Below, piece after piece: positions 4,531 to 34,586 of a stretch of DNA of 64,000 nucleotides. Numbering within the stretch: the first letter of the stretch is position 1; each line of letters opens with the position of its first letter. This DNA is from Natrinema salsiterrestre (GTDB lineage Archaea; Halobacteriota; Halobacteria; Halobacteriales; Natrialbaceae). A program made the position numbers and the translations under genes. The DNA lies in assembly GCF_029502005.1 (NCBI RefSeq), contig NZ_JAMQOT010000002.1, positions 186,001 to 250,000 of the forward strand, in the 5' to 3' direction. A model generated the notes under the pieces. It was not told the DNA's origin, did no database searches, and was given only the letters and a program-made list of their open reading frames with translations.

Positions 4531-4617
4531 CGTTCGCGGCCGCGTTCGGAGACGGTTCGGAGTTGAAAACTGTTCGAATCCGAGCGACGAAGTAACTCTC
4601 CGCGAATTCGGTCGGCC

Positions 4618-5379: not shown

Positions 5380-5545
5380 CTCCCTGCAAATGGCGGGGCA
5401 GTTGGTAAGTGTTTGTTGGAACGGCGACTGTCTGTCAGACGAGAAGGAAATCGTCGGTGCCGTCGGTGCGAAACGGAATCGCCGGGAGAAACAACGGCTC
5501 GAGAGATGCCGTCCGTCGGGTCGTCCGAACCGATCGCTCCCCGAG

Positions 5546-6802: not shown

Positions 6803-6825
6803 ACTCGGTTGGTTCCGCCACCCGG

Positions 6826-6834
6826 GGCATAAGC
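6826..6834 (-). promoter_or_regulatory. Candidate TATA box of glutamate dehydrogenase gene
   Basis: On the minus strand GCTTATGCC lies 24-32 bases before the ATG at 6802. The spacing fits a leaderless promoter, although the box is weak. Confidence 0.35.
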
Positions 6835-6910
6835 GTAGCGAATATCTATCATGGGAGGGGATGTGCGTTCACTTTAATTATGATATTTACCTTGTATACT
6901 GGGCATTCGG

Positions 6911-7768
6911 TCAGCTTTCGTCGGCGGCCGCGGCCCGTTCCCGAATCCGTTCGGCGCGTGCGATCAGCGGCGCGTCGATCATCTCCCCGTCGACCGCGAA
7001 GACCCCCCGTCCCGCCGCGTCGGCCTCGCGTTTGGCTTCGAGGACGCGATCGGCCCACTCGCGTTCCTCGGCGGAGGGCGTGAACGCCTCGTTGATCGGC
7101 CCGATCTGCGCGGGGTGGATCGCCAGCTTTCCGTCGTATCCGAGTTGGATCGCGAAGTCGACGTCCTCCCGCAGTGCGGCCTCGTCCTCGAAGTCGGTGA
7201 CGAGTGTATCGATCGCCGCGCAATCGTTCGCCGCCGCCGCGAGCACGACGCGTTCCCGCGCGTAGAGTACCTCCGTCCCCTTGGCGGTCCGCGTCGCTCC
7301 GATGTCCGCCGAGAGGTCCTCCGCGCCGAACGCCAGCGCGTCGGTTTCCGGGACGGCCGCGATCTCGGGCGCCTCGAGGACGCCGTCGGCGCTCTCGAGC
7401 AAGGCCAGGACGGGCAGGGACGCGTCGTAGCTGCCCAGTTCGTCGGCGAGCGTGCGAACGTCGTCCGCCGAACCGACTTTCGGCAGCATGAGGCTCTCGA
7501 GGGACTCGCTGTGGTCATCGGCGAACAGCGCGTCGAGATCGTCCGCTCGAGTCGCGTCCGTCGCGTTGACGCGAACGCACACCTCGCAGTCGGGATCGAA
7601 TTCGGGATCGGAAAGCACGTCTCGCACCGCCTCGCGGGCCTCCGACTTCCGCCGCGGGGCGACGGCGTCCTCGAGATCGAAGACGATCACGTCGGCTCCC
7701 GCGTCGGGCGCTTTCCGGCACATCTCTGGTCGGTCACCGGGCGTGAAGAGTACGCTTCTGCGGACCAT
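6911..7768 (-). CDS. CitE-type HpcH/HpaI lyase (probable malyl-CoA or beta-methylmalyl-CoA lyase)
   Basis: A 285-residue member of the HpcH/HpaI aldolase/citrate lyase beta family. It shows the family pattern RSVLFTPGDRPEM at the N-terminus, the metal-site DLEDAV segment near residue 32, and GYDGKLAIHPAQI in the C-terminal third. Such proteins reversibly cleave 3-hydroxyacyl-CoA esters such as malyl-CoA, methylmalyl-CoA and citramalyl-CoA. Haloarchaea use one in the methylaspartate cycle, and the neighbouring glutamate dehydrogenase is compatible with that role, but the exact substrate is inferred. I start at the ATG at 7768 (MVRRSVLF), because the nine residues that an upstream start would add do not look like family sequence. 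Confidence 0.85.
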   Translation of the reverse strand: MVRRSVLFTPGDRPEMCRKAPDAGADVIVFDLEDAVAPRRKSEAREAVRDVLSDPEFDPDCEVCVRVNATDATRADDLDALFADDHSESLESLMLPKVGSADDVRTLADELGSYDASLPVLALLESADGVLEAPEIAAVPETDALAFGAEDLSADIGATRTAKGTEVLYARERVVLAAAANDCAAIDTLVTDFEDEAALREDVDFAIQLGYDGKLAIHPAQIGPINEAFTPSAEEREWADRVLEAKREADAAGRGVFAVDGEMIDAPLIARAERIRERAAAADES

Positions 7769-8181
7769 GCTGGTCGTTCCGACAGCCAGGGTCAAAACCG
7801 TCGGTGTGGCGGCGAACCGGTACCGATCGCTCGATCGGCCCGTTTTCGACCGGCGCTACTGGGAGGCCGACACTGTCGGACGGATCGACCTCGAGGCAGG
7901 TGCGATGGCGTGGGACGGACACCACACTCAGAGTGAAACGCGGTCGAACGAACCCGGGGACGGAGAATCGGATGGGACGGGTCCGGACCGATCCGTCCGG
8001 GAACCGTAGAGTATGCGGCTCGTTGGAGGCGATTTCGGGAGTCTGCGTCGGACGATTCGCGATTAATTCACCGACGACACATTGCTGCCCAGATCAGGAA
8101 TTCAGTAATCGACTCCGTATTCGATTTTGATCGAGAGAACGACACTATCCGCCTGACAGGTAAGACACCATCAGTATGGTA
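7769..8181. other. 413-base stretch without a convincing gene
   Basis: The stretch holds the upstream region of the CitE-type gene and then becomes visibly poorer in GC from about 8040. Short open frames exist on the plus strand (one ending near 8009 contains DRRYWEADTVGRIDLEAGAM), but none has a clear start signal or family resemblance, so I do not call a gene. Confidence 0.4.
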
Positions 8182-8304
8182 CTATTCGTCTGAGTCGCGG
8201 TTGTCCTGTTCGTCTGACTGATCGCGGTGTAGCCCATAGAGTCTGGCCACTATGGGAATCATTGCGACCACGACGAATAGAATAGTTACGAAGATTTCGA
8301 CCAT
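8182..8304 (-). CDS. 40-residue single-pass membrane protein
   Basis: A tiny frame from ATG at 8304 to TAG at 8182. The product starts MVEIFVTILFVVVAMIPIVA, one clean transmembrane helix of about 20 residues, followed by RLYGLH and a very acidic tail (DQSDEQDNRDSDE). The hydrophobic helix plus acidic cytoplasmic tail is the usual shape of haloarchaeal small membrane proteins, which argues for a real gene. Codon use is poorer in GC than that of neighbours, and the segment lies in the low-GC part of an accessory stretch. Function is unknown. Frame, length and composition are seen directly; expression is inferred. Confidence 0.55.
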   Translation of the reverse strand: MVEIFVTILFVVVAMIPIVARLYGLHRDQSDEQDNRDSDE

Positions 8305-8478
8305 CGATCTGTTATTATTTATCTAAGAGAGCTGTCCTACTATTTTCGATGTGAGTGGGATATACTCACTGTACCGAACGCGAGTTTCACAGCGAGGACT
8401 GAATACAGAATCCGTGCTCTCGATCGGTATCCGCGGCCTCAATTTTGGTCGACTCCATTCGCGACGAGTGAAAACCGC

Positions 8479-9981
8479 CTACGAGGACGCGTTCCACTCC
8501 CGCAACTCGCCGTCGACGACGACCTCGCTACCGACAGCCTCGAACGTGACTCCACCGTAGGCGACGCTGCTACCGGGCCCCGCGTAGACGCCCGCGTCGC
8601 CACAGTCCGCCGCTCGAGCGGTCGTCAGCGTCGCATCGACGTTCTCTCGGAAGCGGAACGCCTGATCCGACGCTCCCTTGGCCGTCACGGTACTCAGTTT
8701 CAGGTCGTCCATGTCGTCGAAGAGGATCGAGTTCGTGAACGCTCCGTCGACGATGGTGTTCGATATTTCGGCACCGTCGAATCCGGCCGCGTAGATTCCC
8801 GATCCAGCGGCCAGTCCCCGGTTGTCGGTCCTGATCGTGACGTTGGTTATCGTCAGCTCTCGTCGGCCGCTCTCGAGCTGTCCGAGCGAGATCCCCCTCG
8901 CGTTCTCGATACACGAGACGCGGTCGATCGTCAGATCAGCGATCTCGTCACCGGTGTCACCCCTGATCGCCGCGTACAGGCAGCCGGTGATGTAGCCGTC
9001 TCTGATCGTGATCGACTCGTTGCCGTTCCGGTGCATGTGGACGCCGTACTCGGGGCCGTTCTCCGGATCGATCTCGAAGTTCTCGAGCGTACAGTTCTGC
9101 GTCCGCGTCCCGTCGCTTCCGGTCAACGACTCGTCGGTGCCGTCCCAGATGCTGTTCGACGCGATCTCCGACGTCTGATTGTCGAACTGTATCGGCGCGT
9201 TCGACCCGGCGTCGCCCCCTCGAGTCGCCCAGTAGCCGTCGATAGTGACGTTCGTGGACGACACGACGTCGATGTGATGGTAGTAGATGCGGTCGCCGTA
9301 GACGTTTTCCAGTCGAACGTTTTCCGCGTGTGCGAGCATGATGCCGTTCGTTTCCGGCGAATCGATTCGGACGTTACGGATCCCCCAGTTCGATGCGCCA
9401 CCGTACTCGACCCCGTCGTAGCCCCTGTTGGAGACGAGGGCCCGTCCCTCCTCGCCGTCGGGGCGCGATCCCTCGAAGACCGTCGCGCGACCCGCGCCCA
9501 GCAGGATCGTATCGTCGCCGATCAGCGGCGTCCGCTCGAGGACGTACCGTCCGGGCGGGAAGTAGACGATCCCGCCGCCAGCTGACTCGACTTCCGCGAG
9601 AAGGTCGTGGACGTCCCGACCGACCTCGGTTTCGCCGTCGCCCTCGATCCCGTGGGCTTCGACGTTCCAGACGGGCGTTTCCGCGGTACGCGCGTCGACG
9701 AACTCCGCCGCTTCGAAGTGGCTCGTTCCCGGAACCGGCTGTTCAGAACTCCCCCGTCCGCCGAAGTACACCCAGTCCTCGTCTGCGGCGTCCCAGCGCC
9801 ACGTGATTCCCTGATCGGTCGCGTGGTAGAGTTCGTCGTCGTACTCGCCCTCGGCGGGGCGGTCGCTAATCGGTCCCCGAACGATCGCGTGTTCGTCGAC
9901 GGCCTCGACCGTGTCGGTGTGGTCCCACTCCTCGCCTTCCTCGAACGTGCCCAGGTCGAGTCGCGGCGTTCGCTCGCCCAC
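8479..9981 (-). CDS. Right-handed parallel beta-helix protein (pectate-lyase superfamily fold)
   Basis: A 500-residue protein. Residues 105-145 carry the opening of the pectate-lyase-3 type fold (GIEGDGETEVGRDV and GGGIVYFPPGRYVL). From about 160 to 470 there are repeated short strands with Asn-rich turns typical of beta-helix coils (LENVYGDRIYYHHIDVV, LTITNVTIRTDNRG). Residues 1-85 form a separate N-terminal module with several Trp residues. The family acts on or binds polysaccharides outside the cell, yet this frame has no signal peptide of its own. It starts at a GTG two bases after the stop of a 49-residue Tat-lipoprotein frame, so the two may be a split secreted protein. Substrate is unknown. 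Confidence 0.8.
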   Translation of the reverse strand: MGERTPRLDLGTFEEGEEWDHTDTVEAVDEHAIVRGPISDRPAEGEYDDELYHATDQGITWRWDAADEDWVYFGGRGSSEQPVPGTSHFEAAEFVDARTAETPVWNVEAHGIEGDGETEVGRDVHDLLAEVESAGGGIVYFPPGRYVLERTPLIGDDTILLGAGRATVFEGSRPDGEEGRALVSNRGYDGVEYGGASNWGIRNVRIDSPETNGIMLAHAENVRLENVYGDRIYYHHIDVVSSTNVTIDGYWATRGGDAGSNAPIQFDNQTSEIASNSIWDGTDESLTGSDGTRTQNCTLENFEIDPENGPEYGVHMHRNGNESITIRDGYITGCLYAAIRGDTGDEIADLTIDRVSCIENARGISLGQLESGRRELTITNVTIRTDNRGLAAGSGIYAAGFDGAEISNTIVDGAFTNSILFDDMDDLKLSTVTAKGASDQAFRFRENVDATLTTARAADCGDAGVYAGPGSSVAYGGVTFEAVGSEVVVDGELREWNASS

Positions 9982-21523: not shown

Positions 21524-21856
21524 TCACGGAACAACGACGGCGAGAATCAGGAGAACGCCACCGAAACCGAGACTCGCGATTCGCCACGGTTCCCGCATCC
21601 AGGCGGCCCACGCCCCGACGGCCAGTGGCGATTCCACGGCGTCCCGACCGTCCCCGCGACGGCCCTTCTCTGTACGCGAGGCTGACGACGACCGCACGCC
21701 GTTCTCGAGCGTTCGGGCGACCGTCAGACACCCCTGACAGCAAAAGGTACCCTCGAGCGCCGGATCGGTAATCGATCGCGGGGCCGGGAGCGAACACAGC
21801 GAACAGTTCGAACTCGAGTCAGACGGGCGGTCGCCGTGGCAGCTGTCGCGGCTCAT
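21524..21856 (-). CDS. Small Cys-rich membrane protein with heavy-metal-ATPase-like metal-binding domain
   Basis: A 110-residue protein, last in the CO dehydrogenase gene chain. Residues 18-43 hold C-x2-C (CSLC) and FCCQGC, six cysteines in all when C6 is included. This resembles the N-terminal metal-binding module of haloarchaeal copper/heavy-metal P-type ATPases. Residues 92-109 form one C-terminal membrane helix. A copper-handling or storage role at the membrane is plausible. The ATG at 21856 overlaps the stop of the preceding DUF2061 gene (ATGA), so the two are translationally coupled. The FCC-x-GC motif recurs in the XdhC-YHS fusion of the same cluster. The role in CO dehydrogenase maturation is inferred. 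Confidence 0.7.
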   Translation of the reverse strand: MSRDSCHGDRPSDSSSNCSLCSLPAPRSITDPALEGTFCCQGCLTVARTLENGVRSSSASRTEKGRRGDGRDAVESPLAVGAWAAWMREPWRIASLGFGGVLLILAVVVP

Positions 21857-22125
21857 CGCGTGTTTCGAGGCCCGCTCGCTCCCGTGGTCCGAGCGCCCCA
21901 CTCGATGCGATCCCACAGCCGCTCATAGCCGTAATAGGTCCCCGTCTTCACCAGATTCGCGGCGATCCCGATGTTGAGCGCGTCGCCGACGTCGCCGACG
22001 AACAGCCAGGCGATCGTGACCGTGATACAGAGCATGACGAACCGATAACAGACGGTCTTCACGATCACCCGTGACCGGCCCTGAAGCGGCTGGCCGGCGA
22101 GGACCGAACTACTGCGGAGCGACAT
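21853..22125 (-). CDS. DUF2061 membrane protein
   Basis: A 90-residue membrane protein of the DUF2061 family. The family signature is visible as KTVCYRFVMLCITVTIAWLF and GDALNIGIAANLVKTGTYYGYERLWDRIEWG, giving two membrane helices with a characteristic YYxYERLWxxIxWG end. The function of the family is unknown; elsewhere members are sometimes fused or adjacent to sulfate-activation genes. It overlaps the upstream XdhC gene by 17 bases and the downstream Cys-rich protein by four, so it is firmly part of the operon. Its presence in a CO dehydrogenase locus hints at a membrane role in sulfur or metal supply, but this is inference. Confidence 0.85.
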   Translation of the reverse strand: MSLRSSSVLAGQPLQGRSRVIVKTVCYRFVMLCITVTIAWLFVGDVGDALNIGIAANLVKTGTYYGYERLWDRIEWGARTTGASGPRNTR

Positions 22126-23278
22126 CGCCCTCCGACTCGACGGTCACGCGGTCGTGAATGTGCCCCTCTCGGGTTCGCAGGTGGCGCGGCGTCCGATCGT
22201 TGGAGACCGCCAGTACCTCCGCGACGATACTGTGTGCGATCTGGTAAGGGGACCCGCCCCCGAGGTCGAGCCCGATCGGCGTGTACAGCGACGACAGCGT
22301 CGCCTCGTCGAACGTCCGCCCTTCGTCTTTGAACGCCGCGAGCATCTCCTGAAACCGCTTTTCCGGCCCCATCAGGCCGACGTACGGAACGGGCGAGTCC
22401 AGTAACCCCTCGATCGCCAACCGATCGTCGACGAAGTTGTGCGACATGACGACCGCGTACGTGCGCTCGTCGAGATCGATCGCGTCGGCGACGGCTCCCG
22501 GCGAGGTCGTCAGCGTCTCGTCGGCGTCCGGAAACCGCTCCTCGAGGTCGACGCTCCCGCGGAAGCCGACCACGGTGACCCGGAAATCGTTCTTCGCGGC
22601 CAGTTCCGTGACCGGCCCGACGTCGTGACCCGACCCGAACACGACGAGATCCGTCGGCGCGGCGATCCCGTCGGTGAAGACCGCGAGCGATCCCCGCTCC
22701 GACTCGAGTTCGACGACGTCGGCGCGGCCGCGCTCGGCCAGCTCGCCCGCCGGCCCCGAGAGTTCGGCGGGCCACTCCGACGCCGGCGCTCCCGTCGGCG
22801 TCGTGAGCCCCTTCTCCTCCGAATGGTAGTACGCGCGGTCGCCCTCCTCGAGCCGGCCGCTCCGGCCCTCGAGAACGGTGAGGACGGCGACGTTCCGCCC
22901 GTCCGCGAAGGCCTCGACGGCCGGCCGGTAGGCCTCGGTCAGCGGCTCCAGCAGGACGTCGATGATCCCGTTGCAGCCGACGCCGAGCCCCCAGACGTCC
23001 TCGTCGCCCTCCATCAGATCGTAGGTCACCAGCTCCGGGCGGCCGCGTTCGCGGACGGACTCCGCCGCCGCGAGCAGTTCGTCCTCGAGGCAGCCGGCCG
23101 TAATGCTCCCGACGCCCTCGCCGGCGTCGTCGAGGAGCATCTTTGCGCCCGGCCGTCGGTACGCGTTCCCCTCGACGTCGATGATCGTCGCCAGGACGTC
23201 CGTCCCCGCCGCGTCGAGTCGCTCGTGAACCCGCTGTACTACCTCGGTCTCCGGAACGCTCCAGTTGCTTCGTGTCAT
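22109..23278 (-). CDS. XdhC/CoxI-family molybdenum-cofactor maturation protein
   Basis: A 389-residue XdhC family protein with both domains: the N-terminal XdhC_CoxI domain (residues 10-110, with GSITAGCLEDEL and a GVGCNGIIDVLLEP segment), and a C-terminal Rossmann domain starting near residue 200 (LVVFGSGHDVGPVTELAA) and ending YQIAHSIVAEVLAV. Family members bind molybdenum cofactor, help its terminal sulfuration and insert it into xanthine-dehydrogenase-type enzymes. The gene is four-base coupled to the DUF364 gene upstream. A second XdhC, fused to a YHS domain, lies in the same operon, so the two may have divided the work. The ATG at 23278 (MTRSNWSVPETE) is favoured over an upstream frame. 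Confidence 0.92.
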   Translation of the reverse strand: MTRSNWSVPETEVVQRVHERLDAAGTDVLATIIDVEGNAYRRPGAKMLLDDAGEGVGSITAGCLEDELLAAAESVRERGRPELVTYDLMEGDEDVWGLGVGCNGIIDVLLEPLTEAYRPAVEAFADGRNVAVLTVLEGRSGRLEEGDRAYYHSEEKGLTTPTGAPASEWPAELSGPAGELAERGRADVVELESERGSLAVFTDGIAAPTDLVVFGSGHDVGPVTELAAKNDFRVTVVGFRGSVDLEERFPDADETLTTSPGAVADAIDLDERTYAVVMSHNFVDDRLAIEGLLDSPVPYVGLMGPEKRFQEMLAAFKDEGRTFDEATLSSLYTPIGLDLGGGSPYQIAHSIVAEVLAVSNDRTPRHLRTREGHIHDRVTVESEGDVAPQ

Positions 23279-24177
23279 TGTCTGGTCTGTAACGAGTCGA
23301 TATCCCGGTCGTTCACCGCGTACACTTTGCGGACGCCGATATCGTGCAAGTCCGTCCCGCACGCGCCGGCCTCGACGGCCTCACGAACCCGGTCGCGGTC
23401 GGTCACCGACGCCCCGGCGACGACGTCGACGCCGGCGTCGAACGCCGGTGCAGGAAGCACCGACGCCGTCGCTCCGATCAAGACCACCGTCGACGTCGCC
23501 GGTGCGGCCTCGAGATACGCCTCGAGCCCGCCGTAAATGAACGCGGAACCCGTGACGAAGATCACGTCGGCGTCCGCCATCGCCGCGCTCGCTTCTGTCG
23601 GCGGGAACGTCGTGACGCGGACGCTCTCGGGTACCGAGATCGTGCCGACGTCCCGCCGTTCGATGACCCGAACGTCGACGTCGGCGAATTTCCGGAACGC
23701 CGGGCGAAAGAGGCCGACCGTCGCGATCACGTCGACGTCCGGGTCCAGGAGGGCCATCGGATCGCCCGGCTCCCAGTCGACGAACGGCGCCGACAGCGCG
23801 TTGACCGCCGCGACGCCGAGCGCGGTCTCGACCGACGGTTCCGCCTCCCCGTCGCCGGAACCGTCGGTGGCCTCGCCCGACGAGTCGCTCCGCGGCCGCG
23901 TCGCCCACTCGAGGAGCGTGTCGAGGTCGACGCCGTCGGCGGGCTCCTCGAACGCGATCGTGGTCCCCGCGCCCCCGGACGGGCGGTGAGCGAGGCCCGC
24001 ACTCCGTCGGCCCTCGGGTGTCCCCTCGGCGCCGGCCGCGTCCTCGTCCGCGGGACCGACGCTCGCTTCGACCATGACCGCCGCCGTCCCGACCGTGACG
24101 CGCTCGCTGCACGCTCCGTCGAGCGCGCTCATCGACCGGAGACGGTCGACGACGGCCGGAAGGATCGGCTCGATCAT
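23275..24177 (-). CDS. DUF364 (putative heavy-metal chelation) Rossmann-like protein
   Basis: A 300-residue protein. The C-terminal half has the DUF364 pattern: IATVGLFRPAFRKF, a middle segment VIERRDVGTISVP, then ADVIFVTGSAFIYGGLEAYL, VVLIGATASVLPAPAFDAGVDVVAG and a closing helix. The N-terminal third (TVGTAAVMVEAS, and a Ser/Gly/Glu-rich stretch at about 95-112) matches the DUF4213-like half usually found with it, but is interrupted by an acidic insertion. The family is listed as a putative heavy-metal chelation protein and is often near molybdenum enzymes. Four-base overlaps on both sides tie it to coxE and XdhC. Its presence suggests a metal or cofactor chaperone role here (inference). 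Confidence 0.8.
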   Translation of the reverse strand: MIEPILPAVVDRLRSMSALDGACSERVTVGTAAVMVEASVGPADEDAAGAEGTPEGRRSAGLAHRPSGGAGTTIAFEEPADGVDLDTLLEWATRPRSDSSGEATDGSGDGEAEPSVETALGVAAVNALSAPFVDWEPGDPMALLDPDVDVIATVGLFRPAFRKFADVDVRVIERRDVGTISVPESVRVTTFPPTEASAAMADADVIFVTGSAFIYGGLEAYLEAAPATSTVVLIGATASVLPAPAFDAGVDVVAGASVTDRDRVREAVEAGACGTDLHDIGVRKVYAVNDRDIDSLQTRQ

Positions 24178-25592
24178 CCGGCATCGCCTCCGTCGGGTTC
24201 GGCTCCGATCCGCCGCGGATCGTGTTCGTATCCGATCGGCCCGTCGGTCCCGCGGCGCTCGAGCTGTCGCGCGGCCTCGGCGAGATCGGACGGTCCGGCG
24301 AAGCCGAACAGCCCGTCGACGTACGGGAGACAGGTCGCCATGCCCCGCGAGCTGGGTTCGTAGGCCGGCGAGACCGCCAGCGGATTGAGCCAGACGACCG
24401 CGTCGGCCCGGCGGGCCAGCCAAGTGACGCCGTCCTCGAGGGCTTCCGGGTCTCCGACGTCGAGGCCGTCGCTGACCACGACGACGACGGTTCGGCGATC
24501 AACCGCGTGGGGGTGGCGTCGCCGGAGCGTCTCGAACGCGCCGCCGATCCGCGTCCCGCCGCCCCACTCGATCTCGGCCTCTCGGAGCGCGGTGGCGGGA
24601 TCGCCGTCCGCACGCTCGAACTCCCTGGTCGCGTCGATCAGGTCGGTATCGAACAGGAAGACTGAGCCCCTGCGAGCGGTGTCCTGTAACCGTTCCGCGA
24701 CGGCGAGTAGCGTGTCTCGGTCGATGGTATCGAGGACGGAGCCGCTGACGTCGATCAACAGGCAACAGCGGAGTTCGCTCGGGACCGGTTCGCGCGTCGG
24801 GAGTTCCATCGCGGTCCCGCCGGTCCCGAGGCTCTCCCGGAGGGCCCGCCGTGCGTCGACGCGGTCGCCGCGCTCGGCCCGCCGGGTGCGCCGTCCCGAG
24901 ATCGTCGCGAGCGCGGCGACGAACCGGTCGATCGCCGCGCCCTCGCTATCGGACAGCGAGGCGCCGTCGGCGGCTACGGGCTCGCGGTCGCCGACGGCGC
25001 TATACCGACGCGCGGCGCCGTCGGCGGCGTCGACCGCCGTTTCGCCGGTGGCGTGCCGGCGCCCGGTCGAAATCCTGACGTCGACGCTCTCGGTCCCCTC
25101 GCTCGCGTCGGGCGTCGACGCTTCGGCGTCGGACAGGAACTCGGACTCGGCGTCCGACTCGAGGTCGGCCGCCGGCTCCGTCTCGGACTCGTCGCCGTCG
25201 GTCGCGGGAGTCCCCTCGTGGGTCGCGATTCGGTCGATTCCGGTCCGCAACCGGTGCCAGAACGTCGGAAACTCCTCGTCGAAGACCGCACCGTCGTCCG
25301 CGCCGGTCAGCAGCGTCGCTCGCAGCGCGTCCGCGGCGGGCTCCCGGTCGGCGAGACCGACCACGGAGAGCGCGCGCGCTGCCTCGAGCGTTCCGTCCGC
25401 CGCCACCGTCGCGCCCTCGCGGCGGAGCCGCCCCACGAACCGAACGAGTTCCGTCAGGACGTGCTTCCGGGCGCCCTCGAAGTCCGGCACGGCGTCCCCG
25501 CTCGCTCGGTCGAGGCCCCGCACCACGCGCCGCTCGGCGTCGGCTCGGGAGCCGTCGTCGACGGGGTTCGAGGGGGTCCGATTTGGAGACAT
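24174..25592 (-). CDS. coxE: CoxE-like von Willebrand A domain protein
   Basis: A 472-residue cytoplasmic protein of the CoxE/VWA-containing family. Residues 15-120 form a helical region, 125-235 an acidic low-complexity linker, and 270-460 the VWA domain with the metal-binding site DVSGS (281-285) in LLIDVSGSVLD, plus GGGTRIGGAF and VVVSDGLD. CoxE works with the AAA ATPase CoxD in building the CuSMoO2 centre of CO dehydrogenase, as shown for Oligotropha (Afipia) carboxidovorans. The gene overlaps coxD by one base and the DUF364 gene by four. The long acidic linker is longer than in bacterial CoxE and fits halophilic adaptation. Confidence 0.88.
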   Translation of the reverse strand: MSPNRTPSNPVDDGSRADAERRVVRGLDRASGDAVPDFEGARKHVLTELVRFVGRLRREGATVAADGTLEAARALSVVGLADREPAADALRATLLTGADDGAVFDEEFPTFWHRLRTGIDRIATHEGTPATDGDESETEPAADLESDAESEFLSDAEASTPDASEGTESVDVRISTGRRHATGETAVDAADGAARRYSAVGDREPVAADGASLSDSEGAAIDRFVAALATISGRRTRRAERGDRVDARRALRESLGTGGTAMELPTREPVPSELRCCLLIDVSGSVLDTIDRDTLLAVAERLQDTARRGSVFLFDTDLIDATREFERADGDPATALREAEIEWGGGTRIGGAFETLRRRHPHAVDRRTVVVVVSDGLDVGDPEALEDGVTWLARRADAVVWLNPLAVSPAYEPSSRGMATCLPYVDGLFGFAGPSDLAEAARQLERRGTDGPIGYEHDPRRIGAEPDGGDAG

Positions 25593-26623
25593 CAGTCGGT
25601 CGGTTCGATTCGGTCGTCGGCGGCGGCCGCGGCCGCCTGCAGGCGCTCCAGCAGTTCGGTATCGACGCGCGTGACGTCCTCGACCTCCTTGAGGAGGCAG
25701 CCGATCGTCCGTTCGATTTCGTCCGTCGAGAGCGATTCGGCCTCGCCGTCGGCCCGAAGCGAGGCGACCGCTCGCGCCCAGTCGAGCGTCTCCGCCACGC
25801 CCGGCCGTTTGAGGAACGATTCCTCCCGGAGCCGTTCGACGACGGCACAGACTTCGGCCGCGATCGCCCCGTCGAGTTCCGGCACCTTGCGGGAGACGAT
25901 CTCATACTCCGTCTCGAACGACGGCGGGTCCACGTGCAGGTACAGACACCGCCGCTTGAGCGCGTCGCTGAGTCCCCGCGTTCGGTTCGACGTGAGGACG
26001 ACGATCGGCGGATTCTCGGCGCTGACCGTCCCCAGTTCCGGAATCGACACCTGATAGTCCGAGAGGAGCTCGAGCAGGAAGGCCTCGAAGGCCTCGTCGG
26101 CGCGGTCGATCTCGTCGATCAACAGAACCGGGGACCGGTCCCCGCCGGCGGTCAGCGCGCGCAGGAGCGGCCGCTCGAGCAGGAACTCGTCGTCGAAAAC
26201 GGACTGGGGGCGCTCCCCCTCGGCGGCGGCTCCGGAGCCGGAATGGGATGCCGCGCCGCTCGCGTCATCGATTGCGTCCATCGATTCAGGTCCGGTCCCG
26301 CCGGCGACCGTTCCCTCGTTCGACTGCACCGCGAGCAGCTGTTTCGTGTAATTCCACTCGTAGAGCGCGTTCTCGGCGGTGAGTCCCTCGTAACACTGGA
26401 GCCGGATCAGTTCGGTGTCGAACCCCTCGGCGAGGACCTTGCCGAGTTCGGTCTTCCCGCTGCCCGGTGGCCCCTCGACGAGCAGGGGCCGCCCGAGCTG
26501 GAGGGCGAGCTGGACCGTCGTGACCACGCGGTCGTCGGCGACGTAGTTCTGGCGCTCGAACCGCTCGCGAATAACGGACTCGGACAGCGTCTCGGCGGGC
26601 GTTCGGGGCGTCTCTCCCGTCAT
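25592..26623 (-). CDS. coxD: CoxD-like MoxR-type AAA+ ATPase
   Basis: A 343-residue AAA+ ATPase of the MoxR/CoxD group. Walker A is GPPGSGKT (51-58), Walker B LLIDEIDRAD (167-176), and sensor 1 is at VVLTSNRTRGLSDALKRR. The segment YEGLTAENALYEWNYTKQLL is typical of CoxD-like proteins. In bacterial CO oxidisers CoxD is a membrane-associated chaperone needed to insert sulfur and copper into the molybdenum centre. An acidic/Gly/Ser insertion lies at about residues 103-143. It is four-base coupled to the XdhC-YHS gene upstream and overlaps coxE by one base. Start at 26623 (MTGETPRTPAETLSES). Confidence 0.92.
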   Translation of the reverse strand: MTGETPRTPAETLSESVIRERFERQNYVADDRVVTTVQLALQLGRPLLVEGPPGSGKTELGKVLAEGFDTELIRLQCYEGLTAENALYEWNYTKQLLAVQSNEGTVAGGTGPESMDAIDDASGAASHSGSGAAAEGERPQSVFDDEFLLERPLLRALTAGGDRSPVLLIDEIDRADEAFEAFLLELLSDYQVSIPELGTVSAENPPIVVLTSNRTRGLSDALKRRCLYLHVDPPSFETEYEIVSRKVPELDGAIAAEVCAVVERLREESFLKRPGVAETLDWARAVASLRADGEAESLSTDEIERTIGCLLKEVEDVTRVDTELLERLQAAAAAADDRIEPTD

Positions 26624-27780
26624 GCCGATTCCATCGCCTCCTCGTCGGTCGCGAGATACTCGTCGGGATCGGTTCGGAAGGAGTCCGCACAGCCGTGACA
26701 ACAGAAGTAGTAGGTCGTCCCGTCGTGGGCGACGCTCGCGGAGTCGGCCGGATCGACCGCCATCCCGCAGACGGGATCGGTGACCCGCTCGTCGGCCGAT
26801 GTCGAGTCGTCGGTCGCGTCAGTACCGCCGGAATCGGGGGCTTCGGCCGTCGCGTCGGCGTCACCGGCATCGGTCGACTCGCCGTCGGCCGATCCGCCGC
26901 TCGAGCCGCTCCCGGACGCGACGGTCGTCTCGCTGTCGGCCCGGACGTCGATCAGTTCGGCGAGCAGGCTCGTCGCGATCTCCGGCCCGGTGGTCGCCGA
27001 GATGTCGACGCCGGCCGGGTTCGTGACCGCCTCCCGAACGGCGTCGGGATCGCGATCCAGGAGGCCGGCGGCCCGCTCGACGACCTCGTCCGCGCGGCTA
27101 TCGCTCGCGACGAGGCCGACGTACGGCGCGTCCGCGAGCACGCCGGCGGCGACGCCGCGGGCATCGTACTCGCCCATCGAGGCGACGACGACGAACGGTC
27201 CCGCACCGACCGCGTCGGCGATCTCGTCCGGCTCGAGGGTGGAGATCACGGTTGCTCTGTCGGGAAGGTCGGCCGCGGCCGCGTCCGGGTCGACGACCGC
27301 GATCTCCACGTCGAGTTCGGTCGCCAGCGTGACCAGGGACCGCGCGATCGGCGAGTCGCCTACGACGAGGAGCCGCGTCGCCGGAATCATCGGTTCGACG
27401 AATATCTCGAGGGTGCCCTCGCTGTGACACATCATGGGAAAGGCCGCGAGGCCGGGGCGATCGACGTCGTCGGGATCGGGTGCGAGGCCGATCAGTCGGG
27501 GTTCGCCCTCGGCGATCGCCGCTCTGGCCTCGCTGGCGACGCGGGACTGCGCGCAGGCCGCACCGCCGACCCACCCGTGGAGGTCGCCGTTCGCCGTGAC
27601 GAGCGCGCGATCGCCGACGTTCGCGGAGACCGGCGGCTCGCGGCGGACGACCGTCGCCCGGGCGTAGGGCTCCTCGCGGTCCCGCAGGGCGTGCTCTCGC
27701 TCCGCGAGGTCGCCGTCGGTCGCGACGGCTGTTCGATCGCTGGTCGTCTCGTCGTCGGCGTCTGGTGTATCTGCCGTCAT
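26620..27780 (-). CDS. XdhC/CoxI-family protein fused to a C-terminal YHS metal-binding domain
   Basis: A 386-residue protein. Residues 30-130 form a shortened XdhC_CoxI domain (WVGGAACAQSRV, MMCHSEGTLEIFVEP), and 135-275 the XdhC Rossmann domain (LLVVGDSPIARSL, VVVASMGEYD, YVGLVASDSRADEV). Then comes an acidic linker and, at 333-376, a YHS domain with C338 (DPVCGM), C360, C361 and C364 (YYFCCHGC). YHS domains occur in copper and heavy-metal transport proteins. XdhC handles molybdenum cofactor sulfuration, so the fusion physically joins molybdenum-cofactor and metal chemistry. It starts 130 bases after coxL and overlaps coxD by four bases. I know of XdhC proteins in most cox loci, but a YHS fusion is unusual to me. 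Confidence 0.88.
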   Translation of the reverse strand: MTADTPDADDETTSDRTAVATDGDLAEREHALRDREEPYARATVVRREPPVSANVGDRALVTANGDLHGWVGGAACAQSRVASEARAAIAEGEPRLIGLAPDPDDVDRPGLAAFPMMCHSEGTLEIFVEPMIPATRLLVVGDSPIARSLVTLATELDVEIAVVDPDAAAADLPDRATVISTLEPDEIADAVGAGPFVVVASMGEYDARGVAAGVLADAPYVGLVASDSRADEVVERAAGLLDRDPDAVREAVTNPAGVDISATTGPEIATSLLAELIDVRADSETTVASGSGSSGGSADGESTDAGDADATAEAPDSGGTDATDDSTSADERVTDPVCGMAVDPADSASVAHDGTTYYFCCHGCADSFRTDPDEYLATDEEAMESA

Positions 27781-27910: not shown

Positions 27911-30394
27911 TCAGTCGTCGGCCGTGCCGCCGCTTTGCTGGTCGTCGAACTCGAGGCTGACGTTGTCGGCGGGATCCATCGACAGCCCCGCTTCGTCGAG
28001 TTTCTCCCAGACGGTGTCGGGCGTCATGGGCATCTCGACGTGGCTGATCCCGCCGTGAGACATCGCGTCGACGACGGCGTTGACGATCGCCGGCGGCGAG
28101 CCGACGGTCGGCGATTCGCCGACGCCCTTCGCCCCGATCGGGTGGTGGGGCGACGGCGTGACGGTGTGTCCCGTCTCGAACTCGGGGATCTCCATGGACG
28201 TCGGCAGCAGGTAGTTCATGAAGTCGCCGCCGGTGACGTTACCGTTGTCGTCGAAGGTGACGTGCTCGAGCATCGCCGTCCCGATTCCCTGGGCGAGACC
28301 CCCGTGGATCTGGCCCTCGATGATCATCGGGTTGATTCGGTTCCCGCAGTCGTCGACCGCGACGAACTTCTCGAACTCGACCTCGCCGGTCTCGCGGTCG
28401 ACCTCGACGACCACGATGTACGAGCCGAAGGGGTAGGTCATCTCCGGCGGGTCGTAGTAGTTGATCGCCTCGAGGCCGGGCTCCTCGCTCTTCGGGTGGT
28501 TCATGTACGCGCCGGCGGCGATCTCGGTGATCGAGATCGACCGGTCGGGCGCGCCGGTGACGTGGAACTGGCCGCTCTCGCGGTCCCAGTCGATGTCCTC
28601 CTCGGCGGCCTCGAGTTCGTTGGCCGCGATGGCTTTCGCCTTCTCGCGTACTTTCCGGGAGGCGACGGCGGCCGCCGCGCCCGCGACCGGCGTACTTCGG
28701 GAGCCGTAGGTGCCGAGGCCGTAGGGGTCGGTGTCGGTGTCGCCGTGTTCGACGGTGATGTCGTCGACGTCCATCCCGAGCTCCTCGGCCACGATCTGCG
28801 CGAACGTTGTCTCGTGGCCCTGACCCTGGGTCTGGACCCCGACCCGCACCGTCGCGTTGCCGGTCGGGTGGACCCGGATCTCGGCGGAGTCGAACATCTC
28901 GACGCCCGCGATGTCACAGGACTGGCCGGGACCCGCCCCGACCACTTCGGTGAACGAGGAGACGCCGATGCCGAGGAGCTTGTCGGCGTCCTCCTCGATC
29001 CGGCGCTGTTGCTCCTCGCGGTAGTGATCGTAGTCGGCCATCTCGAGGGCCTTGTCCAGCGCCTTCTCGTAGTCGCCGGAGTCGTAGTTCCACCCGGTCG
29101 CGCTCTCGTAGGGGAACTGCTCGGGCTGGATGAAGTTCTTCCGCCGGACCTCGGCGGGGTCCATGTCGAGTTCGTCCGCGAGCACCTTCACCATCCGCTC
29201 GATGAGGTAGACCGCCTCCGTCACGCGGAACGAACACCGATAGGCCACCCCGCCCGGCGCGGTGTTGGTGTAGGCCGCCGTCAGCGTCCCGTAGGCCGTG
29301 TCGATGTCGTACGACCCGGTGAAGATGTTGAAGAACCCGGCGGGGAACTTCGAGGGCTGGGCGACGGCGTTGAACGCGCCGTGGTCGGCCAGCACGTCGG
29401 TTCGGACCGCCTGGATCTCGCCGTCCTCGGTCGCGGCGATCTCGCCGGTCATGTCGTAGTCGCGGGCGAACCCGGTCGACTGGATGTTCTCCGAGCGCTC
29501 CTCGACCCACTTGACCGGCTCCTCTAAGACGTACGACGCCGCGGCGGCGACGACGTAGCCCGGGTAGATCGGCACCTTGTTGCCGAACCCGCCCCCGACG
29601 TCCGGGCTGACGATCCGGATTTTGTGCTCGGGGATCCCCGAGACCTGCGCGAACAGCGTCCGGTGGATGTGGGGCGCCTGCGAGGTCATGTGGACCGTCA
29701 GCTTGTCCTTGCCGGGATCGTAGTCCCCGACCGCTCCGCAGGTCTCGATCGGCGCGGGGTGGAGCCGCTGGTAGAGCATGTCCTCCTTGACCGTGACGTC
29801 GGCCTCCTCGAAGGCCTTCGCGGTGGCCTCCTCGTCGCCGGTCTCCCAGTCGAGGCAGTGGTTGTCCTCCTTGCCCTCGATGTCGTCCCTGATCACCGGC
29901 GCGTCGTCCTCGAGCGCCTTGTCCGCGCCGATAACGGGATCGAGCACGTCGTAGTCGACGACGACCTTCTGGGCCCCGTCTTTGGCCGTGTACCGGTCGG
30001 TCGCGATGACCGCCGCGACCTCCTGGGACTGGAACTTGACCTTGTCGTTGACCAGAACGTCCTGCGTGTCGTCCATCAGCGTCGGCATCGTCGCGAGGTC
30101 GTGCTCGAGCAGGTCCTCGGCCGTGAGGACGGCGACGACGCCGTCGACCTTCAGCGCCCGCGACTTGTCGATGTTCTCGATCCGGGCGTGTGCGTGCGGA
30201 CTGCGAACGATCTCGCAGTGGAGCATCCCCGGTTTCTTGATGTCGTCGACGTAGTTGCCCCGGCCGGTGATGAAGCGCTGGTCTTCCTTTCGTTTTACCT
30301 CCTCGCCCATCCCGCCGCGGCCGTGCCCGCAGTGTTTCTCGGGCTGTGGCCCGCCGTCTTCGGCCTCCGCGAATCGTTCGGAATCGCTGCTCAT
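27911..30394 (-). CDS. coxL: Aerobic carbon monoxide dehydrogenase, large (molybdenum) subunit, form I
   Basis: An 827-residue molybdopterin subunit of a CO dehydrogenase that oxidises CO to CO2 and gives electrons to the respiratory chain. The decisive motif is AYRCSFR (residues 384-390), the form I signature whose cysteine (here C387, C388 in Oligotropha) binds copper; form II and xanthine dehydrogenases have other residues there. Other active-site parts are VGGGFGNKV (267-274), [11 protein letters not shown] (523-533) and E760 in KGVGES, matching the essential glutamate. Length and residue numbering match the bacterial enzyme closely. The N-terminal 30 residues are an extra acidic piece containing HCGHGRGG. 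It is four-base coupled with coxS. Confidence 0.97.
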
Positions 30395-31050
30395 TCGCTC
30401 TCACCTCCGGAAATCGAATCGTGGTCGCGATCGGTCGTCGGCCCACCACAGCAGTTCTCGACGCCGCAGTCGAACTCGTCGTCCTCGTCGGTCAGCCCGG
30501 CCGGCGTGACCGTCGAGCCGTCGGCGTCCGTGACGACACCGCCGTCCGCGGCTGCGATCTCTCCCTCCTCGAGTTCGTCCGCGGCGTACTCGATCGAGCG
30601 GACGATGTTCTGGTAGCCGGTGCACCGACAGAGGTTGCCGCTGATCGCCTCGCGGATCTCCTCCTCGTCCGGGTCCGGATTGTTATCGAGCAGTGCCTTA
30701 CCGGACATGATCATCCCGGGCGTACAGTAGCCACACTGCAGGCCGTGTTCCTCGCGGAACCCCTCCTGCAGCGGGTGCAGGTCCTCGCCGGCCTCGGGGA
30801 GGTCCTCCATGCCCTCGACGGTCATCAGTTCGCTCCCGTCCGCCTGCGTGGCGAACATGAGACAGGACTTGATCGGCTTCCCGTCCTTGAGGACGGTACA
30901 CGCCCCGCAGTTGCCGGTGTCACAGCCGATGTGCGTGCCGGTCAGGTCCAGTTCCTCCCTGATCGCGTGGACGAGCAGCTGCCGCGGTTCGACGTCGATC
31001 GTGTGTTCGGTGCCGTTGACCGTCAGCGTGATTTCTCGCGTGTCTGTCAC
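30391..31050 (-). CDS. coxS: Aerobic carbon monoxide dehydrogenase, small (iron-sulfur) subunit
   Basis: A 219-residue subunit with two [2Fe-2S] clusters that pass electrons from the Mo-Cu site to FAD. The plant-type cluster uses C43, C48, C51 and C63 ([12 protein letters not shown]...SC). The second uses C106, C109, C141 and C143 (QCGYCTPGM and CRCTGYQNI). Bacterial CoxS is about 160-170 residues, so residues 160-219 are an extension. It is acidic and ends with CGVENCCGG (C195, C200, C201), an extra cysteine set not needed for either cluster. The gene is four-base coupled to coxM and coxL in the form I order M-S-L. Confidence 0.97.
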
Positions 31051-31934
31051 TGTGATACCCTCCGTTTGACCAGTCCCGCGCGTTCGGCTGCGTCGCCGAG
31101 CGCGCGCTGGGTGAGGACGTTTACCATGCGTTCCTTGTAGCCGGCGTCGCCGTGCTCGTCCGATTCGGGGTTGGACTGCTCGGCCGCCAGCTCGCCGGCG
31201 CGTTTGAACACCTCGCTGCCGGGCCGCTCGCCCTCGAGGTGGTCCTCGGCGTCGGTCGCCCGGACGTTCGTGATGTCGACGGCCGTGAGACCGACGTCGG
31301 CGGTCTCGATCCGGCCGTCCTCGTCGAGGACGAGCCGCGCGGCCGAACCGGCCATCGCGTAGTCGCCGACCTTCCGTTTGAGCTTGTGGTAGGCACTACC
31401 CTCGCGTGGGGCCGGTGTCGGGACTCGGATCTCGGTGATGAGCTCGTTCTCGTCGAGGGTCGTGTCGTACGGCAACAGGAAGAAGTCCTCGGCGGGGATG
31501 ACCCGCTCGCCGTCCGGGCCCTGCGCGACGATTTCGCCCTCGTGGGCGAGCAGGACGCTCCCCCAGTCGCCTTTCGGATCCGCCTGCGCGATCGCGCCGG
31601 CGACCGTGCCGCGGTTCCTGATCTGGGGGTCTGCAACCAGCGGGGCTGTATCCGCGAAACTGCCGTACTGCTCGTCGATCAGATCGGACTCCTCGACGTC
31701 GGCGTGGCGCGCGAGCGCGCCGATCCTGAGCCAGCCGTCGTCCTCCTCGAGGTAGTCCAGCCCGTCGATGGCGTTGATGTCGATCACGGTCTCCGGAACG
31801 GCGAGCCGAAACCGGAGCATCGGTACCATGCTCTGCCCGCCGGCCAGGATCGCCCGATCGTCGAGGCTCTCGAGCAGACTCACGGCCTCCTCGACGGTAT
31901 TCGGCTCGTGGGTCTCGAACTGTGCCGGTTTCAT
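31047..31934 (-). CDS. coxM: Aerobic carbon monoxide dehydrogenase, medium (FAD) subunit
   Basis: A 295-residue flavoprotein subunit of the molybdenum hydroxylase type. FAD-binding motifs are [15 protein letters not shown] (residues 31-45) and [18 protein letters not shown] (107-124). The C-terminal CO_deh_flav_C domain starts near residue 175 with [15 protein letters not shown]. It takes electrons from CoxS and passes them on to the membrane quinone or cytochrome pool. Length agrees with bacterial CoxM (about 288). The ATG at 31934 overlaps the coxG stop (ATGA), and its own stop overlaps the coxS start. A longer upstream frame shadows coxG and is not part of the gene. Confidence 0.96.
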
Positions 31935-32524
31935 AGCATCCCGCGGATCCGGTCCGTGATGCCCGAATCCGTCTCGTCGACGTCGCTCATCTGTGTCTCG
32001 ATGTCGCTGAAGAAGTTGTTCACGATCTTGTTGGCGACCGGGTTGATGACCCGCGAGCCGAGCTGGGCGATGCGTCCCGAGATGTCTGCCTCGGTCCACC
32101 ACTCGATTCGCGATCCCTCGCCGTCCTCGAGCGGGTGGATCTGCATTCCCGACTCCATGCTGAAGCTACTGCCGCTGGCGGTTCCCGTTCCCGTCGCGGT
32201 CATGATGAAGTTCTCCTCGTCGCGTTCCTCGATCGTCACCGACGTCTCGAAGCGGGGCTTGACGCTCCCGACGCCGACCTGCATCAGCGCGGCGTACTCC
32301 TGGCCCTCGACGAACGCCCGCGCGGCGACGGCCTCCGGATCGGCCTCGGGGAGCGTCTCCGCGTCCTCGTCGGCCTCGTAGTCGTCGTAGCTGAAGTCGT
32401 CGTCCATCGGGGTGATGTACTGACACCCCTTCAGCGAATTTCGGACGGCGATCGGGTCCGAGAGGACGACCCACGCTTTCTCCGGCGGAACGTCCTCGAG
32501 TTCGAACTCCCCGTCGAACTCCAT
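31931..32524 (-). CDS. coxG: CoxG-like SRPBCC-fold protein of the CO dehydrogenase locus
   Basis: A 197-residue CoxG family protein (SRPBCC fold). It opens EFDGEFELEDVPPEKAWVVLSDP, the family's beginning, followed by LKGCQYI, VGVGSVKPRFETSV and a C-terminal helix containing RIAQLGSRVINPVANKIVNNFF. Such proteins are thought to help attach CO dehydrogenase to the membrane or its quinone; recent work on Mo hydrogenase/CODH relatives supports quinone handling, though not proven here. An acidic insertion (residues 45-65) is haloarchaeal. It is the first gene of the operon. An upstream in-frame GTG (32533) exists, but the ATG at 32524 is preferred. A TATA box lies about 50 bases upstream. Confidence 0.9.
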   Translation of the reverse strand: MEFDGEFELEDVPPEKAWVVLSDPIAVRNSLKGCQYITPMDDDFSYDDYEADEDAETLPEADPEAVAARAFVEGQEYAALMQVGVGSVKPRFETSVTIEERDEENFIMTATGTGTASGSSFSMESGMQIHPLEDGEGSRIEWWTEADISGRIAQLGSRVINPVANKIVNNFFSDIETQMSDVDETDSGITDRIRGML

Positions 32525-32574
32525 TATGACCACCCGCGCCGGAGCCGCGATGGTCGTGTGTCGGTCGCCGTCAT

Positions 32575-32584: not shown

Positions 32585-32640
32585 CCTGCACTATGTGCAT
32601 ACTATTTACCACAGTACATGATATCCCCTACCACACAGAT

Positions 32641-32670
32641 AAACATGAGTGTTTCCCGACAAACACGTTT
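32641..32670. promoter_or_regulatory. Two tandem palindromes ahead of moeA (candidate operator)
   Basis: AAACATGAGTGTTT (32641-32654) has perfect five-base arms, and AAACACGTTT (32661-32670) four-base arms. Both read AAAC...GTTT. Their centres are 18 bases apart. They lie 19-48 bases before the moeA ATG, in the 164-base region shared with the cox operon. A regulator binding here could control both directions. Confidence 0.4.
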
Positions 32671-32688
32671 AGTCGTTTATTTAGGTTT

Positions 32689-33918
32689 ATGACGAGAGAC
32701 AAACCCCATGCCGGCGACGATCTGATCGAACTGGACGCGGCCGTTGACCGGGTTCGAGCGCTCCGAACGGAGTGGCTGCCGTCCCTCGAGACGGAACGCG
32801 TCTCCCTCGACGGCGTCGCCGGACGGACGCTCGCGGAGCCGATCCGCGCCCCGGTCGACGTGCCGGCCCAGAGTCACGCGACGATGGACGGCTTCGCGTT
32901 CGACGCGACCGACGAGTATCCGCTGACGGTGGTCGACGACCCGGTATACCCGGAGGACGAACCCCCGGCGCTCGAGTCCGGCACGGCGATCCGGATCGCG
33001 ACCGGCGCGCCGCTGCCCCGGTCGGCGAACGCGGTGCTCAAGCGCGAGGAAGCGACCGTCGACGACGGCCGGCTTACGGGGACGCCGATCGAGCCCGGCC
33101 AGTACGTCTACCAGCGCGGGAGCAACGTCAGCGAGGGGGAGAGACTGTTCGAGGCGGGGGAGCGGCTCGGTGCGAAGGACGCGCTGTTGCTCGGCGATCT
33201 CGATATCGACGACGTCGCCGTCCGCGAGCGCACGTCGGTCGGACTGCTCGCGACCGGTACGGAGATCCACGAGGGGCGCCACCGGGATCTCGACTCGCCG
33301 ATGCTGGCCGGTCTCGTCCGCTCGTGGGGCCACGAGGCGACGTACGAAGGCTCGGTCCCCGACGAGAACGACCGAGTCGAGTCGCGAATCGACGAGCTGG
33401 CCCGCGAGTACGACGTCGTCGTCACGACGGGCGGCACGAGCGTCGGCGACAAGGACTACGTGATCCGCACCCTCGCCGAGCTCGGCGACGTGCTGTTCCA
33501 CCGGGTCCGACTCCGACCGGGCAAACCGATCGCCGTCGCGCGGCTTCCCGACCACGACGCAGTGGCGATCGCGGTCCCCGGAAAGCCGGTCGGTGCCTAT
33601 CTGGTGACGGCGCTCGTCGCTCGCCCGTTCTTTACGGGCGACGCGTCGCTGCCGACGGTGTCCGCGCGGATGGCCCGCGACGTCGGAATCGCCACCCCAG
33701 GCTTCACCTACGCGATTCCCGTCACGCTAGCGGACGGCACTGCGATGCCGCTGGGTCACGCCGACTCCGCACTGCCGATCTACGAGGAGACCTTCGACCC
33801 GAGCGTGCTCTCCTCGAGCACGCGCGCCAGCCGCGCCGACGGGTTCGTCCTGACGACCGAGGCCGTCGCCGCCGACGAGACGGTCGCCGTCGTTCCCTCT
33901 CCCGTCCTGGAACGATGA
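32689..33918 (+). CDS. moeA: MoeA-type molybdopterin molybdenumtransferase
   Basis: A 409-residue MoeA protein that inserts molybdate into adenylated molybdopterin. It shows all domains: the N-terminal ring (GRTLAEPIRAPVDVPAQSHATMDGFAF), domain II with ATGAPLPRSANAV, the molybdopterin-binding MoCF domain (VGLLATGTEIHEG, VVTTGGTSVGDKDYV), RPGKPIAV and AVPGKPVGAYLV, and a C-terminal beta domain. It is divergent from the cox operon, and its stop overlaps the start of the MocA-like gene by four bases. The placement points to cofactor supply for CO dehydrogenase rather than housekeeping. The ATG at 32689 follows the tandem palindromes closely. Confidence 0.94.
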   Translation: MTRDKPHAGDDLIELDAAVDRVRALRTEWLPSLETERVSLDGVAGRTLAEPIRAPVDVPAQSHATMDGFAFDATDEYPLTVVDDPVYPEDEPPALESGTAIRIATGAPLPRSANAVLKREEATVDDGRLTGTPIEPGQYVYQRGSNVSEGERLFEAGERLGAKDALLLGDLDIDDVAVRERTSVGLLATGTEIHEGRHRDLDSPMLAGLVRSWGHEATYEGSVPDENDRVESRIDELAREYDVVVTTGGTSVGDKDYVIRTLAELGDVLFHRVRLRPGKPIAVARLPDHDAVAIAVPGKPVGAYLVTALVARPFFTGDASLPTVSARMARDVGIATPGFTYAIPVTLADGTAMPLGHADSALPIYEETFDPSVLSSSTRASRADGFVLTTEAVAADETVAVVPSPVLER

Positions 33919-34586
33919 CGGGAGAGCCCTCCGCGGGGGACTCGGAACGGCCCGCGACCGGCGACCTCCCGATCCTCGAGCCGGCGGCGCTATCCGGTGA
34001 GTCCGGGTCGCCGACGGTCGCCGGCGTGTTGCTCGCCGCCGGGACGAGCACCCGCTTCGGTGCGGCGAACAAGCTGCTGGCGACGGTCGACGGTGAGCCG
34101 GTGGTCCGCCACGCCGCGCGAACCCTCCTCGAGAGCGACGTCGACCCGGTCGTCGTCGTCCTCGGCCACGAGGCCGATCGGGTTCGGGCCGCGCTCGAGG
34201 GACTGTCGGTCGAGACGGTCGTCAACGAGGCCTACGATACCGGACAGGCGTCCTCGCTCCGGGCCGGTGTCCGAGCGGTTCGGCGGCACGATGTCGACCC
34301 CGACGCCGCCCTCGTCGCGCTCGGCGACATGCCCTTCGTTTCGCCGACGACGATCGACGCGCTGGTGACCGCTTACGCCGCGGACGCCGGGGACGCGATC
34401 GCGGCGGCGTTCGACGGAAGCCGCGGCAACCCCGTCCTGTTCGACGAGCGGTTCTTCGACGTGCTCGCCGACGTCGACGGCGATATCGGCGGTCGAGAGA
34501 TACTGCTCGAGGACGATGCGAGCGTGCTCCTATCTGTCGACGACCCCGGCGTGCGCCGCGATATCGACGTGCCCGAGGACCTCTGA
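33915..34586 (+). CDS. mocA: MocA/MobA-like molybdenum cofactor nucleotidyltransferase
   Basis: A 223-residue NTP-transferase. The nucleotide-binding N-terminus reads VLLAAGTSTRFGAANKLLA (residues 38-56), with VVVVLGHEADRV, the substrate loop YDTGQASSLRAGV, LGDMPFVSP carrying the catalytic metal aspartate, and GSRGNPVLFD near residue 170. These match MocA, which adds CMP to molybdenum cofactor; CO dehydrogenase uses the cytosine dinucleotide form, which makes this assignment fit the locus. The first 33 residues are an acidic lead. Translation is coupled to moeA (ATGA). The choice of CTP over GTP is inferred from context. Confidence 0.9.
   Translation: MTGEPSAGDSERPATGDLPILEPAALSGESGSPTVAGVLLAAGTSTRFGAANKLLATVDGEPVVRHAARTLLESDVDPVVVVLGHEADRVRAALEGLSVETVVNEAYDTGQASSLRAGVRAVRRHDVDPDAALVALGDMPFVSPTTIDALVTAYAADAGDAIAAAFDGSRGNPVLFDERFFDVLADVDGDIGGREILLEDDASVLLSVDDPGVRRDIDVPEDL

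Follow-up and report, generated by a model that had tools for sequence, protein, structure and literature searches.

Form I carbon monoxide (CO) dehydrogenase takes up atmospheric CO worldwide, and the current model of the path by which copper reaches its Mo-S-Cu centre relies on a single alphaproteobacterium, in which a short motif is suspected. In this organism, Oligotropha (Afipia) carboxidovorans OM5, CoxF is encoded on plasmid pHCG3 with coxMSLDE and is needed for copper in CO dehydrogenase (PMC4240915, for the Oligotropha protein). Mutants in coxE and coxF produced CO dehydrogenase with some sulfur and no copper, each mutant missing both proteins, and the sequence MCPSHGTM of CoxF was suspected to be the copper site (PMC4240915). 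A different protein, the adenylyl cyclase of Mycobacterium phlei, carries a C-terminal YHS domain with the residues D-xx-C...C-xxx-C; of the metal ions tried, Cu2+ was the only one to activate this enzyme (PMC4626032). Here we describe a protein with an XdhC core and a C-terminal YHS domain, encoded in a window of 64,000 nucleotides (contig NZ_JAMQOT010000002.1, positions 186,001 to 250,000) from the 4.79 Mb genome of the haloarchaeon Natrinema salsiterrestre. CoxF itself is already published as a copper-insertion factor; the YHS fusion was not found described, yet it is visible by running Pfam. No paper combining YHS with XdhC, CoxF, CoxL or carbon monoxide dehydrogenase was found by a search that left subscription papers and domain databases outside. 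The features on which the comparison relies are as follows (window coordinates).

26620..27780, minus strand: coxF-YHS, the XdhC-YHS fusion of 386 amino acids (PF02625, PF13478 and PF04945 all above cut-offs)
27415..27429, minus strand: CHSEG, a C-x-S-x-G motif of the CoxF type (residues 118-122); in the alignment it falls on MCPSHGTM, where Oligotropha CoxF has its suspected copper site
26623..26784, minus strand: YHS domain, residues 333-386 (PF04945; ligand set D/N-P-V-C ... F-C ... C)
26689..26706, minus strand: FCCHGC, residues 359-364 of CoxF-YHS (motif position in the translation)
27911..30394, minus strand: coxL, form I (TIGR02416, 1214 bits; AYRCSFR)

We identify the XdhC-YHS protein of the window as the CoxF belonging to its form I CO dehydrogenase. 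Form I (Mo-Cu) enzymes were recognised by a TIGR02416 score above cut-off together with the motif AYxCSFR, and the window CoxL had both (1214 bits vs. a cut-off of 991; active-site motif AYRCSFR). The sole other close CoxL homologue in the genome had AYRGAGR at the active-site position and is therefore not form I. Both XdhC domains of CoxF scored above cut-off, PF02625 (XdhC_CoxI) with 50.8 bits and PF13478 (XdhC_C) with 63.8 bits. Oligotropha CoxF has the same two domains, and in the alignment both proteins show C-x-S-x-G where XdhC/CoxI proteins show C-GG. The Oligotropha protein differs in its length of 280 amino acids and in having no YHS domain; in the window protein, the C-terminal YHS (TRASH-like) domain reached 49.1 bits with PF04945 against a gathering cut-off of 30.3. 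The core residues C76, C118 and S120 and the YHS cysteines C338, C360 and C364 were invariant over 52 sequences. In a comparison of fused YHS domains (95 in all), the first, second and third cysteine were kept in 94, 94 and 95 cases, respectively, and the first ligand position was D or N in 92, which gives the set D/N-xx-C...C-xxx-C. The same set has been proposed for copper-responsive YHS domains (PMC4626032).

An AlphaFold2 model of CoxF-YHS had a mean predicted local distance difference test score (pLDDT) of 84.7. The core and the YHS domain were confident, and the linker at approximately residues 291-329 was of low confidence (pLDDT 40-50). Linkers between core and YHS domain were 19-80 residues long (median 37.5; 78 proteins). 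The YHS part is thus predicted to be an independently folded domain on a flexible linker. A profile search of solved structures returned XdhC proteins and phenol hydroxylase, the CoxF core resembling the XdhC proteins 2WE7/2WE8 and 3ON5; when CoxF or its YHS domain was used as a lone query sequence, there was no match.

The occurrence of the fusion followed that of form I coxL, a co-occurrence that the preliminary description of this DNA had set as its own test. Among 293 haloarchaeal genomes of the order, XdhC-YHS was present in all 24 with form I coxL and in none of the 269 without it (p = 1e-35), and coxF-YHS came directly after coxL in every haloarchaeal cox locus. In a sample of 201 Chloroflexota genomes, it was found in 42/42 with form I coxL vs. 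1/159 without; the single extra was G403, in which the fusion was cut at a contig start. Apart from G403, the fusion was absent from Chloroflexota genomes having only lower-scoring, non-form-I CoxL homologues. Form I loci were also present in 24 other bacterial genomes, and there YHS was confined to the top XdhC match (CoxF-type), the other XdhC matches ending before this domain. In a set of 199 genomes assigned to Gemmatimonadota from one member (G300), strong form I coxL was detected in 29, of which 27 also had CoxF; nine further genomes had CoxF and no strong coxL, three of them with coxL fragments. In Gemmatimonadota, coxF can be located 10-20 kb away from coxL. Seven loci of this set (L185-L188, L190, L191, L193) contained coxF-YHS paired with coxD and no adjoining coxL; in some relatives coxL was 10-20 kb distant, and in others it was not found.

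The fusion is not peculiar to haloarchaea. A CoxL-anchored search of bacteria was performed, and its best 80 form I loci (Chloroflexota, Bacteroidota, Acidobacteriota, Armatimonadota, Gemmatimonadota, Bacillota, and others) included 63 with CoxF-YHS, that is 63/64 of the intact CoxF; the sole intact C-x-S-x-G CoxF without YHS was in L086. The other loci among these 80 were cut by contig ends, had other XdhC types or showed no XdhC. CoxF of Thermomicrobium roseum (WP_143714800.1, annotated as an XdhC family protein) had the same architecture as the window protein, with the YHS cysteines intact and the gene directly after coxL; this locus differs in being bacterial, and the flanking DNA displayed carried no annotated coxD, coxE or DUF364 gene. 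Plasmid-borne CoxF occurred with YHS (Thermomicrobium, Paraburkholderia, Caballeronia) and without it (Afipia (Oligotropha), Bradyrhizobium, Roseivivax, Rhizobium, Shinella, Marivivens, Aestuarium, Pseudosulfitobacter, Nonomuraea). All nine alphaproteobacterial CoxF sampled, including that of Oligotropha, were without YHS. In the CoxF tree, which was rooted for drawing only and in which Actinomycetota were hardly sampled, these nine sequences formed one supported clade with YHS-bearing Burkholderiaceae as sister. The presence or absence of YHS needed few changes on this tree. The alphaproteobacterial clade was nested in a YHS background, and a group of YHS-less XdhC paralogues fell outside. 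The simplest reading is one gain of YHS on the CoxF stem and a few losses. This distribution suggests that a delivery arm was lost in the model organism Oligotropha. Whether the tethered arm was the ancestral way of copper loading in bacteria and archaea, so that the maturation studied so far would be a pathway derived by its loss in Alphaproteobacteria, we regard as nearly an even question, leaning slightly to the negative.

These data make CoxF-YHS a plausible candidate copper carrier, because the copper-insertion helper CoxF bears an extra metal-binding domain nearly everywhere examined except Alphaproteobacteria. We slightly favour the view that the YHS arm picks up copper and delivers it to form I CO dehydrogenase. 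The XdhC core with C-x-S-x-G would dock onto apo-CO dehydrogenase already sulfurated by CoxD, and the C-terminal YHS domain, tethered by a linker of roughly 20-80 residues, could work as a swinging arm. Its D/N-xx-C...C-xxx-C site would take up copper; Cu(I) might then reach the Mo-S group and the cysteine of AYRCSFR, either directly or by way of the cysteine in C-x-S-x-G. We infer for most form I systems that the YHS arm would hold the copper, with the core presenting it to the sulfurated Mo site; that this domain binds copper, and that transfer takes this course, are proposals. Such a role in copper supply is plausible for CoxF-YHS and in line with the copper-less CO dehydrogenase of the Oligotropha coxF mutant (PMC4240915). 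A conserved candidate copper domain, predicted to fold separately and present on CoxF of many phyla as well as archaea, opens copper loading to a test at the level of single cysteines. The YHS domain of CoxF may also matter for producing active CO dehydrogenase in other hosts.

Several observations weigh against such a delivery role. Alphaproteobacteria, including the species with the solved Mo-Cu centre, have CoxF without YHS, and the domain is therefore dispensable there. The haloarchaeon G036 had a YHS-less CoxF in an otherwise complete cox locus, and the CoxF of a Deinococcus sp. AJ005 plasmid (L064, 6007-7068) had a YHS-like tail minus two of the three cysteines. Six Gemmatimonadota genomes with CoxF, five of them with YHS, had no coxL found, possibly due to incomplete assemblies. 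The predicted template modelling score (pTM) of 0.69 leaves the placement of YHS relative to the core unfixed. Moreover, a YHS-like stretch is also present in solved phenol hydroxylase. Phenol hydroxylase is not known to use copper; the metal of its YHS-like site is presumably zinc. As this is the nearest solved YHS-like sequence and Alphaproteobacteria manage without the domain, YHS could be a structural or zinc-binding module that aids binding of CoxF to its partners (CoxL, CoxE), with copper coming by another route. We consider this rather unlikely, since YHS is exclusive to the one copper-requiring Mo hydroxylase and the XdhC paralogues in the same genomes are without it. That YHS is a copper sensor gating CoxF, so that copper would license CoxF and the delivered ion would come from elsewhere, appears unlikely too. 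The only fused YHS domain found to have been characterised in biochemical work is indeed a copper-dependent switch, joined there to a cyclase and serving as a sensor, not a chaperone (PMC4626032). However, the long flexible linker fits delivery better than gating, and carriage of copper is the simpler reading, because mutants already show that copper insertion depends on CoxF (PMC4240915). It is, in our view, quite improbable that the YHS cysteines serve sulfuration, as a persulfide or sulfide relay, or shield the sulfurated Mo site and have no part in copper. XdhC proteins protect or deliver sulfurated molybdenum cofactor (Moco), which speaks for a sulfur function, but sulfuration is general in the xanthine oxidase family and YHS is limited to form I partners. 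The coxF mutants of Oligotropha also lose some of their sulfur (PMC4240915), a further point on the side of sulfuration.

The preliminary description had read the neighbouring genes as a longer copper route, in which a small membrane protein is the receptor, CoxF-YHS with a DUF364 protein the carrier and CoxD/CoxE the insertion machine. In this strain, all these genes form a single chain with the minus-strand order coxG-coxM-coxS-coxL-XdhC·YHS-coxD-coxE-DUF364-XdhC2; next come the gene of a DUF2061 membrane protein and an open reading frame (ORF) of 110 amino acids.

31931..32533, minus strand: coxG (PF06240, E 2.6e-20)
31047..31934, minus strand: coxM, FAD subunit (matches to xanthine-oxidase-family FAD subunits; locus position)
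30391..31050, minus strand: coxS, 2Fe-2S subunit (PF01799, PF00111)
25592..26623, minus strand: coxD, MoxR-type AAA+ ATPase (PF07728, MadB_ATPase-like; locus order; start overlaps the coxF-YHS stop)
24174..25592, minus strand: coxE, von Willebrand A domain protein (PF05762, E 2.7e-41)
23275..24177, minus strand: DUF364 protein (PF04016, E 3.6e-22, 79 bits vs. a cut-off of 23)
22109..23278, minus strand: second XdhC (CoxI-like), without YHS (PF13478, PF02625)
21853..22125, minus strand: DUF2061 small membrane protein (PF09834, 58.5 bits)
21524..21856, minus strand: 110-aa ORF with FCCQGC (PF12156, 19.6 bits, below the cut-off of 27)

The three-step route from membrane to enzyme is not supported, and we regard it as extremely improbable: the stand-alone small protein occurred in 2/24 cox loci, with an in-frame stop in one of them and a ratio of non-synonymous to synonymous substitution rates (dN/dS) of 0.78, and no DUF364 was found among the bacterial cox loci scanned. 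As a conserved system, the route is refuted by the lack of the small protein in the other 22 loci. Of the three metal modules, CoxF-YHS alone stands as a plausible copper module.

The small ORF had been taken to fit a membrane copper receptor; neither this reading nor an occurrence only with coxL held. By direct comparison, it is homologous to the N-termini of metal P-type ATPases, though its PF12156 score is below cut-off. It resembles the PF12156 region of haloarchaeal P-type ATPases (CxxC-LP ... FCCxGC) and, unlike them, has no ATPase part and a single C-terminal hydrophobic stretch. A search with the small ORF gave matches in 185/293 genomes of the order. Nearly all matches listed lie in frames of about 740-1290 residues (few shorter), and those read were P-type ATPases; the stand-alone form was present, among the matches listed, in two strains only, the window genome and G211. 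The in-frame stop of the G211 copy is placed before the hydrophobic stretch. The dN/dS value of 0.78 (window vs. G211) compares with 0.04-0.41 for each neighbouring gene. Because of this ratio, the stop and the restriction to two strains, the small ORF is probably a relic, an almost neutrally evolving, detached N-terminal fragment of a metal P-type ATPase outside the cox system, and was rejected as a copper receptor.

The motif FCCxGC, which had been proposed to link the two proteins, is indeed present in both, as FCCHGC at residues 359-364 of the 386-aa XdhC-YHS protein and as FCCQGC at residues 38-43 of the 110-aa ORF. It was not confirmed as a signature peculiar to these two: as a DNA pattern, it occurred five times in the genome, and a backward-read control also gave five. 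The five real matches were all TRASH-type, namely two metal P-type ATPases, one permease, CoxF and the small ORF. The permease (L071, G000:C20:397175) has FCCGGC between its membrane parts and appears TRASH-like by reading of the sequence. Among CoxF relatives, the middle Cys and the Gly of the motif vary (FCGEGC, FCSEGC, FCCPDC), the middle Cys being kept in 74/95. FCCxGC is thus a generic mark of the TRASH/YHS family and P-type ATPases, no commoner than in the control, and is therefore no evidence of a common pathway for CoxF and the small ORF.

The gene of the DUF364 protein is flanked by coxE and the second XdhC gene, as described before, and its association with coxL was confirmed (22/24 haloarchaeal genomes with coxL vs. 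7/269 without; p = 6e-25); exclusivity was not, since it was present in those seven genomes, in several of them as an orphan among unrelated genes. It matches PF04016 and the solved structure 3NPG. For this family, to which Dhaf4260 also belongs, the heavy-metal label derives from structure and from settings of Fe, W, V and Mo transport, not copper (PMC2954201). Three DUF364 proteins of genomes that lack form I coxL also kept its invariant Cys273 and His278. A role as copper chelator is unsupported, given this conservation without coxL and the lack of DUF364 in the bacterial loci scanned, and a role on the molybdenum side is no less likely than one in copper. In G267, which has neither coxL nor XdhC-YHS, a remnant coxD-coxE-DUF364-XdhC2 was found (L050, G267:C1:1906000-1922000, 3647-9426). 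In this remnant, coxG-M-S-L-F are gone and moeA lies approximately 110 bases from the coxD frame, as if the enzyme block from coxG to coxF had been cleanly deleted.

In the window, moeA-like and nucleotidyltransferase-like (MocA-type) genes are located at 32593-34586 on the plus strand, divergent from the cox operon. This arrangement beside cox recurs in Natronorubrum bangense (L063) and in the G267 remnant. The gene of the DUF2061 protein (21853-22125, minus strand) overlaps the end of XdhC2, and among cox loci only those of the window and G211 have it. It is under purifying selection, with a dN/dS of 0.12 (window vs. G211).

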